DNA from: a virus
DNA: 49,523 nucleotides
IMG/VR virus record: IMGVR_UViG_3300025806_000038
Coordinates: 1 to 49,523 of that record
Strand: one strand, 5' to 3'
How positions within the stretch are numbered: position 1 is the stretch's first letter; the number at the start of each line of letters is the position of its first letter. The notes below the pieces were generated by a model, which saw nothing but the letters and a program-made list of their open reading frames with translations, made no database searches and had not been told where the DNA came from. This document shows positions 11,993-26,834 of the stretch, one piece after another. A program made the position numbers and the translations under genes.

Positions 11993-14447
11993 CTAACAAT
12001 TTAAATCTAGCTTGTTGTTCTAATCTTGCTCTGGCAGTTTCATCTCTAAGCTCTGCTATTTCTTCTTGAGAACCAATTCTTTCTCTATCAACATTCATTC
12101 TTTGTTGAGCTTCTTGAATCTTTCTTTGTTCAGCCGCTAAGAATTGTTGTTGCTCTATAGATAGCTCTTGGCCTTTTAACGCAAGCTCTTGTTTTCTAAT
12201 TGCAACTAATGGATCTTCGTCTTGAGGAGAAGCGACTTTCTGATTGTACTCTACTAACAACTCAGCAAGTATTGGAGCTGAGAATTGTGCCAATAGATCG
12301 CCTGCTTGAATAGATAAGTTTTGTGCTTCTTCTGGTGATGCTTGTTGAGCCTGTTGTTGTAACTGTTGGAACTGTTGCATAACTTCTGGCGGCATTTGTT
12401 GTTCACCCAATATATCTGCTTTCATTTGTAAATGTTGCATGATGTGAGAATGTATCAAAGCTTGAACCTGAGCATTCATTTGAACAGGTGGTGTATTCAA
12501 CAAAGACATGTGAATAGCAATATGTGCATCATGATTTTGTTGTGGGAATGCTTGAGCTTGCTGACCTAATAACAATTGGTTGTTTTCAAATCCAGCTTCT
12601 AAAGGAAGTGGATCTGTCGGAGGTGGTGGTGTAAGTATTTGTTCTACGTTGTCTACACCAATCGCTGCATACATTCTTTTATAAGCTTCGTAAGTGCCGT
12701 TAGGGCCATGAACTTGTGGGTTAGATTGTACTAACTGCATCATCTCCTGCGCCATAGCAATTCTTTGTGACTGACTAAATATATCTGGGTTAGATATAGG
12801 GAAGATGTCTACCCTTTGATCAAAGTCAGATAACTTAATTGTTGTTTCATTATTTGCTACTGCATATGGATATTCTTGCGGTAAATATTCTTTAAATACA
12901 TCAGCTAATATTTTAAATTCTTTCTTTTGAGAATTATGTAGCCTTTTATGGATAGCCGATAATACTTTGGTAGATCTTTCTAATAAAGCTAATGTAGTTC
13001 CTACAGGAGCGTTTGGATTACCTTGTCCTGTATTTATTTCTGCAATAGATGCAAATTTTTGACCTGAGTTAACTAGAATGTTTAATAAACTAAGAAGTGT
13101 GCCACTAGGTTCTTTAAATGGTAACGGTTGTATTGAATCTCTAAGAGATCCTCCAGGCGCATCAACATCTCTAAACTCTCCTGGTTGTATAGGAGTATCT
13201 TCATCTCTAATTCTTATACCTCTAGTTTTAAAACCAGCAGGCAAGTTTGCTAAAGTTCCTGCATCAATTAACTGTCTCATAATTGAAGTAGATGCTTTAG
13301 ATAAACCACCAATCATATGAGTTAAACCAAATCCGTAAAAACCTAAACCAGGCAAGAATTTAAAATGTACAAAGTATTCTATTTTGTTTTTAAGTTCGTC
13401 ATCTTCTTTGTAGTTTCTTCTAACAGATAAAACTTCGTTTGAATTAGCATCTATGGTCACGATATAAGGAAGCTTAATTCCTGTAAGCTCACCTTCTTCG
13501 TCAACGTCTTCGTAACCGTCAAGTTCTAAATTACAATGAACTTCGTATAGAACAGATACTTCTCCATCATCGTAAGATGGCTCCATACCAGAAAGTTTGT
13601 CTATTTCTTCTTTGACACCAGAATAGTTTTCTGCGTTATCACCACTTTCTAAATCTATCTTTCTATAAAAACCTAGTGCTTGTAATTTTCTAACTTCGTT
13701 TTCTGATATTTTTACAACATTAGTAATTCTAGGGCAGGTTTCTAAATCGGTTGTATAGTAAGGAACAATTAAATCTTCGGGTGCAATAAACTTAGATACA
13801 GCTCTACCTAAACTTTCATCATAATAAACTTTCTTAAATGCAGATCCTGCTAATGGTAAATAAAATAATAACTGGTCTAATTCTTGATCGAACTCTTCCA
13901 TTACATGAGTAATTTGATAGTTCATAAATTCTTTAACTCTTTGTGCTTGTTCTTCTATCAAAGAATCATAGGCTCCTATGACTTGAGTTTTAACTGGACC
14001 ACCTGACGGTAAAAGTTCTTTATAAGCTTGAGCTTGGAAGGTTGTTACAGCTTCACCTAATAATGGATGTATAACACCAGATGCACCTTCAAAAGGTTCA
14101 GATCTTTCAGCATCAAACCTCATACCTAAATATTCAAGACCGTCTTTATAAGTTTTTTCCCAATCTTCTCTTGAAGCCTTATCTTTCTCAATACCAGCCA
14201 TCAATTCATTAGATATGTTTGCTAGTTGTTGATCGTCTAAAATTTCAGCTAGGTTTTCATCAAATCCTGTTTCTACTTCTTCGGTCATGGTTTCGCCTAA
14301 GATAGCGCTACCATCTTCTTGCATTTCAAAACCTTCTGCCCCTGATTCCATAATTGCTTCAATAGCAACTTTCATATTTTCTTGGCCAAGCGGTACTTGA
14401 TTCTCTTCGTTTAAAACCGTTGGATTAATTTCTTTTTCTATTGCCAT
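11970..14447 (-). CDS. Portal protein (P22-type, 825 aa)
   Basis: The long product has an acidic N terminus, then DWEKTYKDGLEYLGMRFDAE, HPLLGEAVTTFQAQAYKELL, a portal wing/stem region with LDQLLFYLPLAGSAFKKVYY and APEDLIVPYYTTDLETCPRI, LIDAGTLANLPAGFKTRGIR, and a long Gln-rich helical C terminus (residues about 640-810). Length, 'F.GASGVIHPL', and the extended C-terminal barrel/coiled coil match large portal proteins of P22-type podoviruses. The dodecameric ring is the DNA-packaging vertex and docks TerL and the gp4-like adaptor. It follows TerL and a 62-residue gene; its ATG at 14447 touches that gene's stop. Confidence 0.9.
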   Translation of the reverse strand: MAIEKEINPTVLNEENQVPLGQENMKVAIEAIMESGAEGFEMQEDGSAILGETMTEEVETGFDENLAEILDDQQLANISNELMAGIEKDKASREDWEKTYKDGLEYLGMRFDAERSEPFEGASGVIHPLLGEAVTTFQAQAYKELLPSGGPVKTQVIGAYDSLIEEQAQRVKEFMNYQITHVMEEFDQELDQLLFYLPLAGSAFKKVYYDESLGRAVSKFIAPEDLIVPYYTTDLETCPRITNVVKISENEVRKLQALGFYRKIDLESGDNAENYSGVKEEIDKLSGMEPSYDDGEVSVLYEVHCNLELDGYEDVDEEGELTGIKLPYIVTIDANSNEVLSVRRNYKEDDELKNKIEYFVHFKFLPGLGFYGFGLTHMIGGLSKASTSIMRQLIDAGTLANLPAGFKTRGIRIRDEDTPIQPGEFRDVDAPGGSLRDSIQPLPFKEPSGTLLSLLNILVNSGQKFASIAEINTGQGNPNAPVGTTLALLERSTKVLSAIHKRLHNSQKKEFKILADVFKEYLPQEYPYAVANNETTIKLSDFDQRVDIFPISNPDIFSQSQRIAMAQEMMQLVQSNPQVHGPNGTYEAYKRMYAAIGVDNVEQILTPPPPTDPLPLEAGFENNQLLLGQQAQAFPQQNHDAHIAIHMSLLNTPPVQMNAQVQALIHSHIMQHLQMKADILGEQQMPPEVMQQFQQLQQQAQQASPEEAQNLSIQAGDLLAQFSAPILAELLVEYNQKVASPQDEDPLVAIRKQELALKGQELSIEQQQFLAAEQRKIQEAQQRMNVDRERIGSQEEIAELRDETARARLEQQARFKLLDARNKNS

Positions 14448-14635
14448 TAGTGTAGTACTCTTTTTTCTTCTTCCTCAATCATAGAACTTGGGAATGCGTC
14501 AACTAAAGTGCCAACAATTTTAAGATTAAAACGTGTTGCTTCTTTTTCTGCTTGATTCCAGCTTTCTGAAATAATACATGGGCCACTAAATGTTGTACCA
14601 TTATCCTCATATTCTGTAAGAAATATTAATAACAT
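14447..14635 (-). CDS. Hypothetical protein, 62 aa, between terL and portal
   Basis: The product starts MLLIFLTEYEDNGTTFSGPC and holds ESWNQAEKEATRFNLKIVGT, then LVDAFPSSMIEEEEKRV. The 'SW..AE..A......VG.L' pattern recurs in small phage proteins encoded beside terminase genes. It is predicted to be a small alpha/beta domain. It lies one base from the TerL stop and overlaps the portal ATG by one base, so all three are co-translated. Function unknown. Confidence 0.7.
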   Translation of the reverse strand: MLLIFLTEYEDNGTTFSGPCIISESWNQAEKEATRFNLKIVGTLVDAFPSSMIEEEEKRVLH

Positions 14636-14636
14636 C

Positions 14637-16097
14637 TTAATAGTATACCCTCTTTACTGGCGCTTTCTCTCTATCTTCGTAATCATCCCCAAGAGAAACC
14701 AAACCACCCTCTCTGAATCTCATCAAGGCTTGAGTCATAGTATCGCATAGGTCATCATTTTTACCAAAGGGAAATGAAGCACATTCCTCTATCATCTCTT
14801 CTGCAAACTTTCTTTCGGGTGCATAAACCAAACCAGACTCAAAGATAGGTGCAACTGAGTGCATTCTTGTAGACTTGTCATGTCCTCTGGTTGGAGAGTA
14901 ATTAACGACAGGTATACCCAATCTTCTAAGTTCGTGAGTTAAAGGAGTACCCGAAGCTTTTGCCTCAATCAACACCATATCAGGTTCCCAATATTGGTAT
15001 TCTTCGTAAGCTACTCTTTTCAATTCTGGAAAATCCCAACGGTCTTTCTGCGCATCTAATAATATGATGCAATCAGGAGAATCGGGTGTAGGTCTAAATA
15101 CACCCCACGTTGAAATAGCTGAATAGTCTGCTGTTTCTTTTTTACTAAAAGCCGTATCGTAGCTTTGAATAATATAACTTACTGGAGGCAAAGCTTCGCT
15201 TTCCCAAGCATTCCACCACTCTCTTTTGACAATAGAACCTTCTTCAGAGGTAGGTGTCTGCATCCATTGTGCATTCCATTTCTGTACAGGTAAAGAAGCT
15301 TTTACTTTTTCTAATTCATCTATAGACCAGAACTCGGGCCATAAAGGATTTTCTGTTTCAGGAAAGATAGCTGGAAACTCTACAACTTCCCATTGGTCAG
15401 CTGAAGATTCTTTTTGTGAGTCTAACAACTTAGCCGTTAGATCAATTGAACTCCAACGTGTCATCACAAGAATGATAGCTCCACCAGGCTGCAAACGCTG
15501 TCTAGGTCCAGAGGTGTACCATTCCCAACAGGCTTCCATAGCCGTAGGACTCAAAGCGTCTTGCTCAGAATGAGGGTCATCAATAATGAGTAGATCCGCA
15601 CCTCGACCTGTAATAGCTCCTCCTACACCTGCGGCAAAGTATTCTCCGCCTTTGTCAGTTTCCCAACGACCCGCTGATTTAGAGTCTGCTCGTAGTTCTA
15701 CTTTAGGAAAAATCTGTTTGTATTCTTCAGCATCCATCATGTTACGAACTTTACGACCAAACCTTACAGCTAACTCACCTGTATGAGTGGTCTGCATAAT
15801 TTTTCTTCTTGGCTGTTTACCCATAATCCAAGCTGGAAAATAAGTAGAACAAAATTCAGACTTGGTGTGACGAGGAGGCATGTTAATAATAAGCCTGTTG
15901 CATTTACCATTAGCAACATCCTCTAACTTTTCTGCAAATATTTTATGGTGACGGCCACAAATAAACTCAGGCCACATGTGATCAATAAACTCTAGAAATG
16001 TTTCTTGACAACCTTGTTGTTTTTTTAATAACTCAAGACGTTCTTTGAGTATAAGTGTTTCTTTAATCTCTTGATCAGAAAGATGTGCTAGGTTCAA
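14637..16097 (-). CDS. terL: Terminase large subunit (TerL)
   Basis: The 486-residue protein has both motor and nuclease domains. Walker A is MPPRHTKSE at residues 73-81 (the P-x-R-x-x-K-S variant of phage terminases), Walker B LLIIDDPHS at 169-177, and coupling-motif-like VMTRWSS at 211-217. The RNase H-fold nuclease has SYDTAFS (Asp314), LIEAKASG (Glu378) and DDLCDT (Asp449 or Asp452). It packages DNA through the portal using ATP and cuts concatemers. Its ATG overlaps the end of the 999-residue gene by 4 bases. The small subunit is not adjacent but 10 kb away. Confidence 0.95.
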   Translation of the reverse strand: MNLAHLSDQEIKETLILKERLELLKKQQGCQETFLEFIDHMWPEFICGRHHKIFAEKLEDVANGKCNRLIINMPPRHTKSEFCSTYFPAWIMGKQPRRKIMQTTHTGELAVRFGRKVRNMMDAEEYKQIFPKVELRADSKSAGRWETDKGGEYFAAGVGGAITGRGADLLIIDDPHSEQDALSPTAMEACWEWYTSGPRQRLQPGGAIILVMTRWSSIDLTAKLLDSQKESSADQWEVVEFPAIFPETENPLWPEFWSIDELEKVKASLPVQKWNAQWMQTPTSEEGSIVKREWWNAWESEALPPVSYIIQSYDTAFSKKETADYSAISTWGVFRPTPDSPDCIILLDAQKDRWDFPELKRVAYEEYQYWEPDMVLIEAKASGTPLTHELRRLGIPVVNYSPTRGHDKSTRMHSVAPIFESGLVYAPERKFAEEMIEECASFPFGKNDDLCDTMTQALMRFREGGLVSLGDDYEDREKAPVKRVYY

Positions 16098-20884: not shown

Positions 20885-20914
20885 ATTGTAACACCTGTTT
20901 TGATGAAATGTAAA
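20885..20914 (-). promoter_or_regulatory. Putative promoter of the structural operon
   Basis: On the minus strand TTTACA (-35, 20914-20909), 18 bases, TACAAT (-10, 20890-20885). It is 100 bases upstream of the first structural gene (20786) and downstream of a terminator-bounded unit. Confidence 0.5.
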
Positions 20915-20930
20915 AAAAATGAAATTTGTT

Positions 20931-21030
20931 TGAGAGAGATCTTGTCCTTGTGTGTGTCTCTACTGGTCTACCAATTTTTTTGTCCCCCCCCTTCAGCCTG
21001 ACCTGATTCCCGATCCGATTTGCCTGACAA
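20931..21030. repeat. GC-rich intergenic module F
   Basis: The shortest and most diverged member of the intergenic module family. On the plus strand it has CTTGTCCTTGTGTGTGTCTC, CTACTGGTCTACC, a run of eight C, and CCCGATCCGATT. No gene; it lies between the terminator of the 71-residue gene and the structural promoter. Confidence 0.5.
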
Positions 21031-21042
21031 ATAGAGTCCCAT

Positions 21043-21065
21043 AAAAAAGGGGGCGTGATGCCCCC
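21043..21065 (-). terminator. Intrinsic terminator of the 71-aa gene
   Basis: GGGGGC (21049-21054) and GCCCCC (21060-21065) form a stem with loop GTGAT, followed on the minus strand by six U. It lies 20 bases after the stop at 21085. Confidence 0.85.
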
Positions 21066-21084
21066 TAATTCCTCCAAGGTTTTT

Positions 21085-21300
21085 TTAGTTGATGTTATCG
21101 GGATTGCCAAGTGGCGGAACTAAGTTCATGCCGATCTGTTCAGCTGTTGGCTGACCCATTAATTCGCGCATCTCAGAGTTGATGCCACCATTTGAAATGA
21201 TGTGCTGACCATTAATGATGAGACTATTACAAGCTGTCTCAATTGCTTTGCCAACTACCTGTTGACCTGTCTCATCATATAAGTTTATTTCTATCTTCAT
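21085..21300 (-). CDS. Hypothetical protein, 71 aa
   Basis: The product starts MKIEINLYDETGQQVVGKAI and has ETACNSLIINGQHIISNGGI, then RELMGQPTAEQIGMNLVPPL. A strand-rich N terminus with an Asp/Gly turn is followed by a helix. AGGAG about 8 bases upstream of the ATG and its own promoter and terminator mark it as an independent single-gene unit. I do not recognise a family. The isolated unit structure is like a phage moron. Confidence 0.7.
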   Translation of the reverse strand: MKIEINLYDETGQQVVGKAIETACNSLIINGQHIISNGGINSEMRELMGQPTAEQIGMNLVPPLGNPDNIN

Positions 21301-21334
21301 TTTGACCTCCTAAAAGTCGTTTGTTTATTCTTTT

Positions 21335-21362
21335 ATTTTAATGATTGGATACAAAATGTCAA
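21335..21362 (-). promoter_or_regulatory. Promoter of the 71-aa gene
   Basis: On the minus strand TTGACA (21362-21357), 16 bases, TAAAAT (21340-21335). The plus strand reads GATTGGATACAAAATGTCAAC across it, sharing the GGWTACA-n4-TGTCAAC block with two other promoters in this region. Confidence 0.7.
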
Positions 21363-21377
21363 CAACTATTTTTACTT

Positions 21378-21548
21378 ATTTATCAGACCAGCTTGGACGA
21401 ACCCTGGAGGCGAAACACCAGAGATCTCCTGGGCTGCTGGAAGCCTCTTGTGTATGTGTAAGGTACCTGCCAGTTGAGCGGCCCGACCCGAAACTGATGC
21501 TCATCCCCGACCCCGACCGCCCATTAGGAATACCAGCAGGTAAATAAA
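21378..21548. repeat. GC-rich intergenic module A
   Basis: Plus strand: CTCCTGGGCTGCTGGAAGCC, then CTTGTGTATGTGTA, then GCCCGACCCGAAAC and CCCCGACCCCGACC. It has much higher GC than the flanking genes and no convincing gene. It separates the 105-residue gene's end from the promoter of the 71-residue gene. Confidence 0.6.
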
Positions 21549-21553
21549 AATGG

Positions 21554-21871
21554 TTAGCTCAAGCACTTATACATCTCTTCCCAATACTCATCGATATACT
21601 CGTAATCCCAGATTGGAAAGCTGCACTTGTCCGAACCCCAAAAGCCCTGGATCTCTCCTTCAAATGTGTCAACCCAAACAGTAGGACCGCCCCCCGCTAT
21701 CATCAACCTAGCGCCTAAGTACTCCCCGCTTCCGTCTATTATGTAGCGGATGCTGTAAGCCTCATAACGACAGTTCTCGTCACCATCTGGGTAAAACATC
21801 ATGCAGCCGTTAGTTGCATCTTCAGCATATGTTTTGCACATGTGACGCAGTTCTTTTTCACAGTCACTCAT
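21554..21871 (-). CDS. Hypothetical protein, 105 aa
   Basis: The product starts MSDCEKELRHMCKTYAEDAT and contains YSIRYIIDGSGEYLGARLMI, AGGGPTVWVDTFEGEIQGFW and GSDKCSFPIWDYEYIDEYWE. The centre (LGARLMIAGGGPTVWVDT) is a pattern I have met in small proteins of marine phages without known role. Five Cys and many Trp/Tyr suggest a compact fold. Its ATG overlaps the stop of the DUF3846-like gene by 4 bases, so the two form one unit. Confidence 0.65.
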   Translation of the reverse strand: MSDCEKELRHMCKTYAEDATNGCMMFYPDGDENCRYEAYSIRYIIDGSGEYLGARLMIAGGGPTVWVDTFEGEIQGFWGSDKCSFPIWDYEYIDEYWEEMYKCLS

Positions 21872-22341
21872 TTGACTAGTTTGATTTGTGACCTGGCCAT
21901 CTCAACAACAGCTTCAGACGCTTGCTTTGCAATCTCTGGATCCTCGCCAAGCTTCTTAGTAACTATCTGGCCGTTCTCGTCTTCATAAGTAAAGCTCATA
22001 AACGGTTCTTCTTTATGGCCTTCATCTTTCCAGGTTAATACCTCTTGCACCTGCGCAACGGTTATGGGCGTATCTTGAGAGTTGCCGTCCTCGTCAGATT
22101 CTCCCGCTATAATAGCGCGTCCTGCATAAGGCACGTCACCCAGGGCAAAGTAACGATTGTCTTTTAACAGCCCTTCATCATCAACGAACATAATAACGGC
22201 ACCACCCAGCGGAACTACATCCATTAAGCTGCATTCCATCATGCTCCTCAGACTCTTATAATCAAAAGACTCTTGGTCCGTTGGTGCTTGCTTCATCTCT
22301 ACCGTTTGATTGAACGGATCTATTAATATTACTTTCTTCAT
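21868..22341 (-). CDS. DUF3846-like protein, 157 aa
   Basis: The N-terminal part MKKVILIDPFNQTVEMKQAP, then DYKSLRSMMECSLMDVVPLG, VIMFVDDEGLLKDNRYFALG and GRAIIAGESDEDGNSQD follows the order of DUF3846 proteins (V-I-D-P...., E-V-x-x-L, NEEG-like DDEG, NR, GxxIIxG). The family is common in phages and mobile elements with no settled role. The last 60 residues carry EEPFMSFTYEDENGQIVTKK and a C-terminal helix. It is first in a two-gene unit behind a promoter at 22374-22402. Confidence 0.6.
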   Translation of the reverse strand: MKKVILIDPFNQTVEMKQAPTDQESFDYKSLRSMMECSLMDVVPLGGAVIMFVDDEGLLKDNRYFALGDVPYAGRAIIAGESDEDGNSQDTPITVAQVQEVLTWKDEGHKEEPFMSFTYEDENGQIVTKKLGEDPEIAKQASEAVVEMARSQIKLVK

Positions 22342-22373
22342 CTTCTTTCTCCTAAATAAGTTAATGAGCTTTT

Positions 22374-22402
22374 AATATAGTTGAATGGTTACATCTTGTC
22401 AA
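22374..22402 (-). promoter_or_regulatory. Promoter of the DUF3846-like unit
   Basis: On the minus strand TTGACA (22402-22397), 17 bases, TATATT (22379-22374). The plus strand reads GAATGGTTACATCTTGTCAAC, sharing the GGWTACA-n4-TGTCAAC block. Confidence 0.75.
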
Positions 22403-22429
22403 CTATTAATTTAAATATCTTTGGACCAG

Positions 22430-22556
22430 TACTGTTGTCCTGGCCAGAGCTGCGTGGCCAGATCTCTTGTGTTTGTATTGTGTGTTTCTCCTAGCCTCGC
22501 AGAGCTAGAAGGCGTATTACCATCCCCGACTTAGATCCCCGACCATCCTGCTGCCC
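22430..22556. repeat. GC-rich intergenic module B
   Basis: Plus strand: GTCCTGGCCAGAGCTGCGTG, CTCTTGTGTTTGTATTGTG, then an IR-like CTAGCCTCGC/AGAGCTAGAAG and two TCCCCGAC boxes. No gene. It lies between the terminator at 22557 and the promoter at 22402. The stretch 22342-22915, apart from this module, holds the candidate small RNA, its promoter, module C and a terminator. Confidence 0.6.
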
Positions 22557-22582
22557 AAAAAAAACCCCTCGTAAAAGAGGGG
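22557..22582 (-). terminator. Intrinsic terminator of a gene-free unit
   Basis: CCCCTC (22565-22570) and GAGGGG (22577-22582) with loop GTAAAA, followed on the minus strand by eight U (22564-22557). No protein gene lies between it and the promoter at 22734, so it ends a noncoding transcript. Confidence 0.85.
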
Positions 22583-22698
22583 CTTTAAGTATGGTGGTGA
22601 CAAGTACAAGTAGAAATATTTCTTTGCCTCTACAGGCGTTGGGCTTTGCCCCTTGTTTGTGAGTCTGATCTTCCGAGACGAGTCATGCACATTTAATT
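22557..22698 (-). ncRNA. Candidate phage small RNA (about 135-140 nt)
   Basis: A strong promoter (22734-22705) is followed, with no gene of more than about 18 codons and no ribosome site, by an intrinsic terminator at 22582-22557. In between, on the minus strand, GGGCAAAGCCC and GCCTGTAGAGGC can each fold as short hairpins, and AGAAATATTTCT is a perfect palindrome (22623-22612). The predicted transcript starts near 22698. The structure (promoter, hairpins, terminator) is that of a regulatory small RNA. The 5' end is an estimate from the -10 box. Family is unknown to me. Confidence 0.6.
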
Positions 22699-22704
22699 AA
22701 GTTC

Positions 22705-22734
22705 ATTATAAAACGATTGGTTACAACCTGTCAA
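22705..22734 (-). promoter_or_regulatory. Consensus sigma70 promoter of the candidate small RNA
   Basis: On the minus strand TTGACA (22734-22729), 18 bases, TATAAT (22710-22705): both boxes are perfect consensus. The plus strand reads GATTGGTTACAACCTGTCAAC, the GGWTACA-n4-TGTCAAC block. Confidence 0.8.
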
Positions 22735-22754
22735 CTACTAATTATAGATCTATT

Positions 22755-22866
22755 TCATCTTCTCCTGGGCCAGCTGCAACCCCCCTGGTGTGTTTGTGTT
22801 TGTGTGTATCTTATGTGTGTGTTAACTGCTTTGCCAAATCCAAAAGCCCGACCCCGATTTCCCGAC
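22755..22866. repeat. GC-rich intergenic module C
   Basis: Plus strand: CTCCTGGGCCAGCTGCAACC, then GGTGTGTTTGTGTTTGTGTG and TTATGTGTGTGTT, then GCCCGACCCCGATTTCCCGAC. No gene. It lies between a terminator (22867-22892) and the small-RNA promoter. Confidence 0.6.
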
Positions 22867-22892
22867 AAAAAAAAGCCCGAATAAATCGGGCT
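22867..22892 (-). terminator. Intrinsic terminator of the 132-aa gene
   Basis: AGCCCGA (22874-22880) and TCGGGCT (22886-22892) with loop ATAAA, followed on the minus strand by a run of eight U that includes the last stem base. It lies 24 bases past the stop at 22916. Confidence 0.85.
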
Positions 22893-22915
22893 AAGATTAA
22901 AGTGAGTTAATCAAT

Positions 22916-23314
22916 TCATAACCTCACCTCCTCTTCTAAAACTTTCATCAAGTCAGCAACTGTCTCTGCCCCAACTTGAGCAATCAAGATTGCGTTGCAT
23001 AAATCAGTTTGAACACTCCAAGAACTTTCTAATTGCAAATAAAAATCTTTGTTTTCATGACGATAATTATAACTATCAGTTAAATTCCAATACTCTGATT
23101 TATTTTCTTCGTTAAAAGAATTTATACCTTTTTGTATTTCATTTCCTATCTCATTAGCTTGTTCAAGTATCTTCTTTTTTTCTTTACTTAACTTGGTCAG
23201 CTTTTTGTAAGTAGGCGATTTTTTAAAACCCTCATTTTTTAATTCCATTTGGGCTTCCATTTTTTTATAGAAACGATTAGCGATTGCCTCTCTTTCTTGC
23301 TTATTGGTTTTCAT
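22916..23314 (-). CDS. Helical hypothetical protein, 132 aa
   Basis: The product starts MKTNKQEREAIANRFYKKME and continues as a charged helix (KKLTKLSKEKKKILEQANEI), then ENKSEYWNLTDSYNYRHENK and a final helix with NAILIAQVGAETVADLMKVL. It is a lysine-rich, mostly helical protein with no recognised family. AGGAGG stands 8 bases before the ATG. It forms a single-gene unit with promoter at 23357-23387 and terminator at 22867-22892. Confidence 0.7.
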   Translation of the reverse strand: MKTNKQEREAIANRFYKKMEAQMELKNEGFKKSPTYKKLTKLSKEKKKILEQANEIGNEIQKGINSFNEENKSEYWNLTDSYNYRHENKDFYLQLESSWSVQTDLCNAILIAQVGAETVADLMKVLEEEVRL

Positions 23315-23356
23315 TTTTATATACCTCCTAAAAGTATGTTGTTTAAATGAAACATT

Positions 23357-23387
23357 AGTATAACACGATATGTATACAAATTGTAAA
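23357..23387 (-). promoter_or_regulatory. Putative promoter of the 132-aa gene
   Basis: On the minus strand TTTACA (23387-23382) and TATACT (23362-23357) with a long 19-base spacer, or TTATAC with 18. The plus strand reads ATGTATACAAATTGTAAAC, a diverged copy of the shared GGWTACA-n4-TGTCAAC block. Confidence 0.5.
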
Positions 23388-23410
23388 CTATTTAAGTAAG
23401 TATTTTTCTT

Positions 23411-23536
23411 CCATCAACGGCGTCCCAGCTCAGATCTGGAAGACGGCAGATCCCCTGGAATCCTTCTGGTGTGTTATCATGTGTTATGCCTTGCAGTAAA
23501 CCCGACCCCCGACACCCGATTCAAATGACCCGACCC
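23411..23536. repeat. GC-rich intergenic module D
   Basis: Plus strand: CCATCAACGGCGTC (23411-23424), CCCAGCTCAGATCTGGAAG, GGTGTGTTATCATGTGTTAT, then six CCCGA-type boxes (ACCCGACCCCCGACACCCGA and GACCCGACCCGACCCGAA). No gene. First of two tandem modules in the 668-base gene-free interval 23315-23982. Confidence 0.65.
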
Positions 23537-23565
23537 GACCCGAATGATTTATCAACCTTTCAAGA

Positions 23566-23690
23566 CCATCAACGGCGTCTCCTGGAAGGATCTGGAAGCT
23601 CTGTTGTGTTGTGTTATGTGTAGCAATACACCCCTCATTTAATATTCTTTAGCTTAGCCCGACCCGACCCGATTTTTTCCTAGCTTTTTT
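23566..23690. repeat. GC-rich intergenic module E
   Basis: Repeats module D in order: CCATCAACGGCGTC (23566-23579, exact 14-base copy), CTCCTGGAAGGATCTGGAAG, CTCTGTTGTGTTGTGTTATG, then GCCCGACCCGACCCGATT. It is followed by a purine tract (GTGGGGGAGAGAGGGAAAGA) at about 23691-23718. The tandem pair of D and E in the divergent region could be an origin or regulatory site. Confidence 0.65.
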
Positions 23691-23796
23691 GTGGGGGAGA
23701 GAGGGAAAGAGAGGGGGGATGCGATTAACTTTCTAATTTCCCATATGTGCGTAAATATAACTATAAAAAATAAATACATTTTGTACCCTAAAACCC

Positions 23797-26137: not shown

Positions 26138-26208
26138 GTTTCTTATTTTACCTAGCACTATTCTTATACATCCTTGTATTTATTTTAGACAGACCTAACC
26201 AGAACTAA
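26134..26208 (+). CDS. Membrane mini-protein, 24 aa
   Basis: The product MSFLFYLALFLYILVFILDR plus PNQN is a single hydrophobic helix with a polar tail, starting in an ATGA overlap with the previous gene. It is the last gene of the chain and its stop overlaps by 4 bases the end of the convergent terminase small-subunit gene. Very short, so real translation is uncertain. Confidence 0.4.
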   Translation: MSFLFYLALFLYILVFILDRPNQN

Positions 26209-26834
26209 TCAAAACTCTCTTCTTCCTCTAAATCCGTAGCTTGATCTATTACTTCCTGTTTTAGATCTTCCTGTTCCAATCTTTCTAAACTATCAGCCTC
26301 ATCTTCCAGCTCGCCTGGATCCAGAAGACCGTCAGTTTTATTGGCTAAGACCACATTCCCCATCAGCTGCTCAAGTCGTTTCTCTACTTCTTCCCGACTC
26401 ATTTGATCAACCTTCCCGAACATAACTTCTTTTCTATCCACTACAAGACCCCCGACCTTTAATAAACTATTTTGTGCCGATATGGCAGCATTAAAGGACC
26501 CCGCTTCGAGGGCCTTGTCCCTAATATCATATAGATCCTGGACAGCTCTATCATAATTTAACTCATACTTCTTCTTAGCTTCATTCATCAGATAGTTATA
26601 TTCTTTACGAATAGTTGGATGATTCATGAGCTTATTGGCAGATTGCCGAGCATCTTTATACCCAGCCTTATGTGCGCATTCTACGAGAGATAGCCGAGGA
26701 TTATTGACAGCTTGCCAAATAAAGTTTCTTTGTCTGCGATTGAGTGAATTGTCTAGATTAGCGAATTCAATGGGAGCTTCTTCTTCTGGAGAAAGGATAG
26801 GTTCATATTCTAATTTATTTTTTCTATAACCCAT
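26205..26834 (-). CDS. terS: Terminase small subunit
   Basis: The 209-residue protein contains the Terminase_2-type DNA-binding region near residues 28-80: NSLNRRQRNFIWQAVNNPRL, SLVECAHKAGYKDARQSANK, LMNHPTIRKEYNYLMNEAKK. A coiled oligomerisation part follows (RAVQDLYDIRDKALEAGSFN), then LEQLMGNVV and a very acidic C terminus (LEDEADSLERLEQEDLKQEV). TerS rings bind pac or cos DNA and deliver it to TerL. Finding it 10 kb from terL, between convergent early genes, is unusual; most phages keep the pair adjacent. No clear ribosome site is seen before the ATG. Confidence 0.8.
   Translation of the reverse strand: MGYRKNKLEYEPILSPEEEAPIEFANLDNSLNRRQRNFIWQAVNNPRLSLVECAHKAGYKDARQSANKLMNHPTIRKEYNYLMNEAKKKYELNYDRAVQDLYDIRDKALEAGSFNAAISAQNSLLKVGGLVVDRKEVMFGKVDQMSREEVEKRLEQLMGNVVLANKTDGLLDPGELEDEADSLERLEQEDLKQEVIDQATDLEEEESFD

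Follow-up and report, generated by a model that had tools for sequence, protein, structure and literature searches.

Polar CCCGA arrays and terS boxes as candidate packaging sites in a clade of uncultured marine phages

What is the role of a family of noncoding modules that recurs between the small genes of a phage? The window analyzed here is a single IMG/VR virus record in its entirety (IMGVR_UViG_3300025806_000038; 49,523 bp), and its modules lie between positions 20,931 and 23,672, to the left of terS, the gene for the small terminase (TerS). With a probability of roughly 0.55, comparison among related genomes points to modules that are arrays of boxes resembling packaging (pac) sites, in which a polar array of the word CCCGA would be the essential part, recognized by the phage's packaging initiator, most likely TerS.

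Modules in the window and in related phages

Each module comprises a cluster of GATC and CCTGG words, then a TTGTGTT stretch, and then a CCCGA array, and in modules A to E this order is invariably read on the + strand. The modules, and a noncoding core located beyond them, are as follows:

20931..21030, + strand: module F (degenerate), with AGAGATCTTGTCC, then TTGTGTGTGT, then CCCGA/CCGATCCGA
21378..21540, + strand: module A, with a CCTGG/AGATCTCCTGG part, TTGTGTATGTGT and 4 CCCGA
22430..22555, + strand: module B, with a CCTGG/AGATC part, TTGTGTTTGTATTGTGTGTTT and 2 CCCGA
22750..22870, + strand: module C, with CTCCTGG, TGTGTTTGTGTTTGTGTGT and a CCCGA array
23411..23543, + strand: module D, with CCATCAACGGCGTC, a GATC/CCTGG part, TGTGTTATCATGTGTTAT and 6 CCCGA, including CCCGACCCGACCCGA
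23566..23672, + strand: module E, a tandem copy of D, with CCATCAACGGCGTC, CTCCTGGAAGGATCTGGAAG, TTGTGTTGTGTTATGTGT and CCCGACCCGACCCGA
23709..23732, + strand: noncoding core GRGGG..RATGCKATTAAY, to the right of the last array

The original prediction, confirmed in what it observed and partly supported in its interpretation, proposed six modules with a fixed internal order. This order is found in A to E, and F is a worn, degraded copy. Both strands were searched with a pattern of CCTGG or AGATC, followed by TTGTGT or TGTGTT, followed by at least two CCCGA. It matches the + strand at 21448, 22467, 22789, 23470 and 23604, corresponding to modules A to E, and nowhere else in 49.5 kb; the - strand of the window has zero matches. 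Dinucleotide shuffles of the whole window (n = 100) contained 0 modules, and those of the 20.8- to 23.8-kb region (n = 2000) a mean of 0.002, compared with the 5 observed. Module F retains AGAGATC, TTGTGTGTGT and a single CCCGA, plus the degenerate CCGATCCGA; it is better kept in relatives L008, L077, L095 and L108, and two CCCGA are found at F in relatives. D and E form a tandem duplicate with offsets of 127 to 156 bp, and the exact 14-mer said to be common to them is present in both. The modules were also described as much richer in guanine and cytosine (GC) than the genes, which holds for A, B and D (0.54 to 0.57) but is less marked in C, E and F (0.48 to 0.49); the window mean is 0.365, and neighboring genes range from 0.31 to 0.47.

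The phage encodes a portal protein, the large terminase (TerL), TerS, a Prim-Pol protein (PF09250), an exonuclease and a Sak4-like annealing protein. Judged by portal and TerL, the cultured phages closest to it are Pelagibacter phages HTVC023P and HTVC027P, phage DSL-LC04 and roseophages CRP-901/902, and no DNA similarity to cultured phages was detected among 50,697 phage records. Forty loci from relatives were fetched by a scan that used the gene adjoining module E. Cassettes were compared across 28 loci, zone and polarity were summed over 17 records, and genes were ranked among 703 open reading frames (ORFs) from 17 genomes. The modules do recur in related genomes, as the original prediction anticipated. 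The majority of the 40 loci have the same modules with the same polarity, and each related marine phage contig carries 2 to 7 modules, with order and polarity unchanged and with cassettes of varying genes between them. Modules are absent from HTVC023P, HTVC027P and CRP-901. HTVC023P (L170) has different intergenic repeats of its own between terS and terL (12373-12565 and 14888-15304; CTTGAGAATACATACCGAAAATTTTTTGCAAA, approximately 3 copies), and the freshwater phage DSL-LC04 (L393) has a repetitive, GC-rich (0.64) gap between terL and terS at 14329-15029, whose words are quite different.

The suggestion that the modules are a mobile noncoding element has little support, as they occupy one zone to the left of terS in every relative. 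A host or mobile origin was rejected after one strict pattern was scanned against 84,980 prokaryote genomes: the 10 isolated matches appear chance-like on inspection, and none of those read resembles a module.

Comparison among lineages also indicates which part of the module is invariant. Elements of a sister lineage have TATATATA, GTCTATAGTCTA or TATTCTATTC as their middle instead of TTGTGTT, and GTCTATA also occurs as a middle word. Because this second lineage has CCCGA arrays with other middle words, TTGTGTT is not the core. One relative (G029; IMGVR_UViG_3300034375_003959, 23391 bp, locus L362) has 0 GATC in 23.4 kb, where 81 are expected, and therefore lacks the GATC part of the module, but its CCCGA arrays are retained. 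Since the middle varies by lineage and GATC is dispensable in G029, the CCCGA array is the invariant part. All other relatives have normal GATC numbers, and the absence from G029 suggests that its host exerts strong restriction directed at GATC.

A polar word in the small terminase gene

Outside the modules, CCCGA is concentrated in terS, 2.5 to 6 kb to their right:

26205..26834, - strand: small terminase gene terS, with + strand CCCGA boxes at 26393, 26415 and 26451

CCCGA density is mostly 1 to 6.7 per kb from -7 kb up to terS, and approximately 0.05 per kb elsewhere. The word is nearly always on the + strand, and its complement, TCGGG, does not follow the zone pattern. In the terS genes of 8 genomes, 38 CCCGA are observed, compared with 0.45 expected under genome codon usage, and the word ranks first among 5-mers. 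Individual terS genes have 3 to 8 boxes where 0.02 to 0.2 are expected, written with unusual codons (P<1/3000 in each of 10 genomes). When synonymous codons were shuffled within genes, CCCGA was still the top 5-mer, with 59 occurrences versus 8.8 in family A and 140 versus 30.4 in family B, and the opposite-strand count in this test was 0. The boxes, which sit mostly in the 3' half of the gene, are thus kept by selection on synonymous codons. GATC and CCTGG are weakly raised within terS.

This pattern extends over approximately 107 terS genes in two families (roughly 45% identity), each with 2 to 10 boxes, of which 0 are reversed; it is stronger still in the sister family (4 to 10 boxes, 0 reversed, about 50 genes). 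terS is the most CCCGA-enriched true gene in all 17 genomes, and the only rivals are ORFs that overlie arrays. The terS genes of HTVC023P and HTVC027P have no clearly enriched word, and both phages lack CCCGA boxes and arrays alike. Structure prediction for TerS was weak (mean predicted local distance difference test score of 64; no PDB match at E<=0.001) and is not used as evidence.

In terS the CCCGA boxes are antisense to the gene. The + strand genes between the modules and terS carry CCCGA in the sense orientation, with 54 occurrences versus 27 expected (2 versus 2.7 for TCGGG). Since the orientation of the word relative to transcription is opposite in terS and in these genes, its carrier is a DNA strand and not a transcript. 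The same observation bears against the idea that the modules are RNA elements, such as 3' untranslated-region hairpins, rut-type terminators or antisense RNAs. Terminator hairpins do adjoin some modules, and the first part of the module sometimes folds. However, this part shows no common fold over 92 module copies, and no Rfam match exceeds the gathering score. We therefore regard an RNA element as extremely improbable. A covarying hairpin in the first part, plausible by eye, was likewise dropped because folding did not support it; this part is a cluster of GATC and CCTGG words.

A candidate packaging zone

Because the key word of the modules also occurs in the coding sequence of a packaging gene, the comparison suggests that the modules are where the packaging machine docks, and not random repeats. 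A pac site is expected in or beside terS; the boxes are within this gene in every genome ranked, and the arrays are at most approximately 7 kb away. Short repeated words selected within coding DNA are likewise expected, and CCCGA is the top word in both terS families. The original prediction listed binding sites among its possibilities, and fixed order and polarity, drifting spacing, conservation and selection within a coding gene all argue for such sites.

We infer TerS as the binder and the zone as the place where packaging starts. In the proposed mechanism, TerS, alone or with TerL, would recognize the CCCGA arrays. The terS boxes and the 5 or 6 intergenic arrays would form a zone of approximately 6 to 8 kb that tags phage DNA for the terminase, and the polarity of this zone would probably tell the terminase the direction. 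The GATC/CCTGG cluster and the low-complexity middle may help to shape the complex, with the middle (TTGTGTT, TATATATA or GTCTATA, depending on lineage) perhaps serving as a deformable segment. Because most arrays are directly upstream of a leftward promoter, binding might also throttle these promoters, much as SPP1 TerS represses its own synthesis.

Short repeats within terS are already known as pac sites. The pac site of phage P1 lies inside pacA and has seven TGATCA/G hexamer repeats flanking a segment bent by IHF (PMC10028697). The present boxes resemble it in being very short, in occurring in several copies in the coding sequence of a small packaging protein, and in the presence of GATC words. 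In contrast to P1, the box here is CCCGA and is polar, most copies are in 5 or 6 intergenic arrays kilobases from terS, and GATC is dispensable in G029. The SPP1 pac site overlaps late promoters and the start of gene 1 (terS), with a pacL-pacC-pacR arrangement and three sets of direct repeats, and SPP1 TerS binds both sides of the cut (PMC6316719, PMC4737164). SPP1 and SF6 thus resemble the present phages in bringing together repeats, promoters and terS, but SPP1 has one site at the terS start, whereas here there are many sites, most terS boxes are in the 3' half of the gene, and the repeat words differ. In phage T7, the short-repeat arrays SRL and SRR are located beside the terminal repeat, near the packaging and processing site. 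The present phages, by contrast, have no known terminal repeat, and boxes are also found inside terS. To our knowledge, few pac sites have been described outside model phages.

Several points weigh against a packaging role. Support for it in this clade comes from sequence comparison. The terS call is based on a PHROG match (3e-8), on a Pfam match that is borderline (16 of 36 members) and on the homology of the protein to the annotated TerS of HTVC027P (34% identity, E 3e-17). The known pac sites cited above extend over a few hundred bp at most, so a zone of several kilobases with 5 or 6 arrays is unusual. A strict 5-bp TerS code is not a given, because SF6 TerS has little sequence specificity (PMC4737164). 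Finally, TerS proteins are approximately 80% identical within a family, so the terS genes are not independent samples, and independence rests mainly on the two families.

The modules might instead act in replication, with the arrays as iterons and TTGTGTT as a template for the Prim-Pol protein, which belongs to the pRN1 ORF904 family. The origin would consist of D and E together with an AT-rich stretch (23740-23795) that is flanked by divergent promoters. The window and most larger relatives encode Prim-Pol, and priming by the ORF904 family starts at GTG in T-rich templates (PMC8076596). The tandem pair D/E, which the original prediction saw as possibly part of an origin, is real, and together with the GRGGG..RATGCKATTAAY core it lies at the point of divergence, genes running leftward at 20.4-23.3 kb and rightward from 23.98 kb. 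(GC skew in the window tracks the coding strand.) The core is found behind the last array in two deeply diverged lineages, has 27 distinct copies over both terS families and is nearly unique in each genome; it is a candidate cut site or origin element. The Prim-Pol template was favored at first and was dropped since TTGTGTT is replaced by TATATATA or GTCTATA in relatives that encode this same Prim-Pol, which does not fit a GTG-based origin. Moreover, the pRN1 origin, a stem-loop of 100 nt, is located behind the replication gene, and its GTG motif is unnecessary for function (PMC4234260). The present locus resembles it in the replication-protein family, in GTG within T-rich DNA and in a nearby noncoding element, but the first part of the modules has no common fold, and the Prim-Pol gene is approximately 8 kb away. 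CCCGA boxes are also absent around the primase gene and enriched in terS. We consider an origin doubtful, and the evidence on D and E points more to packaging.

A circular record was considered, as its terminal ORFs join in frame, and rejected: relatives show that approximately 5 to 6 kb is absent between the ends. The record is a linear fragment.

Cassettes around the modules

The modules are interspersed with the following features:

20885..20914, - strand: promoter-like TTTACA-18-TACAAT, left of F and facing the leftward gene block
21048..21066, - strand: intrinsic terminator-like hairpin between the 71-aa gene and module F
21085..21300, - strand: cassette gene of 71 aa (family f4) between F and A, in 23 of 28 loci
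21335..21362, - strand: leftward promoter TTGACA-16-TAAAAT beside module A, with a conserved TGTATCC spacer
21554..22341, - strand: cassette genes of 105 aa and 157 aa (DUF3846) between A and B, the latter replaced or absent in relatives
22374..22402, - strand: leftward promoter TTGACA-17-TATATT beside module B
22565..22580, - strand: terminator-like hairpin adjoining module B
22705..22734, - strand: leftward promoter TTGACA-18-TATAAT (12/12) beside module C
22874..22892, - strand: terminator-like hairpin adjoining module C, with CCCGA within the stem
22916..23314, - strand: cassette gene of 132 aa (family f2) between C and D, in 28 of 28 loci

Modules F, A, B and C lie directly upstream of sigma-70-like promoters at 20914, 21362, 22402 and 22734. 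As these promoters face left, the four modules are upstream of them and follow the preceding unit's terminator or end, a placement that the original prediction had claimed for five modules. D has a variant promoter near 23378, and E lacks its own promoter. A common sequence, GTTGACAnnnTGTAWCC, characterizes the cassette promoters; within the window it occurs, with a -35 element, in the module region only. This arrangement could reflect operator or activator clusters through which a regulator other than TerS co-controls the cassette promoters, and the shared spacer is consistent with that. On the other hand, tandem modules (D/E, and B/C in L077, L093 and L108) have no promoter between them, the distance from module to -35 varies from approximately 40 to 130 bp, and the terS boxes do not sit at a promoter. 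Such a function is unlikely.

Among the cassette genes, families f2, f3 and f4 are near-constant and f9 is common; others vary between the same modules, and two modules can adjoin without an intervening gene. The proposed setting, as spacers of moron-like cassettes, is therefore correct: variable genes with their own promoter and terminator lie between conserved elements. These elements might be recombination boundaries, intergenic repeats kept for cassette exchange by homologous recombination, as in T4-type phages. The PeSL intergenic cassettes of those phages reportedly (Arbiol et al. 2010) combine a promoter and a stem-loop. The resemblance is that they too are repeated elements, with a promoter and a terminator, that recur between small variable genes. 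In the present modules, by contrast, the shared part is a three-part array that is linked to terS and lies outside the transcription unit. Exonuclease and Sak4-like genes are encoded, and gene content does vary between conserved modules, but recombination leaves unexplained the polarity, the synonymous selection in terS and conservation at the level of words rather than sequence. We hold it to be very unlikely.

Some additional features were observed. A tiny ORF of approximately 20 to 24 aa (21490-21590, - strand) overlaps the CCCGA boxes of module A; it has a transmembrane-like end, ..YLLVFLM[AGS]GR.., looks conserved across lineages and is also found in L032, L093 and L178. At 22565-22705, approximately 120 nt separate the 12/12 promoter from a strong terminator, and no conserved gene lies in this interval; the unit is possibly a small RNA or a remnant of an 80-aa cassette gene of relatives. 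Elsewhere, the gene at 33352-33810 matches the Mom DNA-modification family (PF25680) and adjoins a gene that resembles PDDEXK nucleases.

A literature search for CCCGACCCGA yielded no phage report, and in the literature searched no description was found of a polar 5-bp code distributed over 5 or 6 intergenic arrays and terS with interchangeable middles. A bolder and quite tentative extension of the packaging role is a distributed polar zone, in which a terminase-recognized array would accompany each of the small cassettes that lie between terS and terL. Each incoming cassette would bring its own packaging and regulatory site, the boxes would couple packaging to shut-off of neighboring promoters, and packaging sites would template cassette exchange.

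The polar 5-bp code was found by comparative genomics alone, across a clade of uncultured marine phages. With the CCCGA arrays, the specificity of TerS can be tested using a single protein and short DNAs, and a search for polar words that are over-represented in terS relative to its own codons may serve more generally to find packaging signals in metagenomic phages. The finding thereby bears on how TerS finds its own genome.

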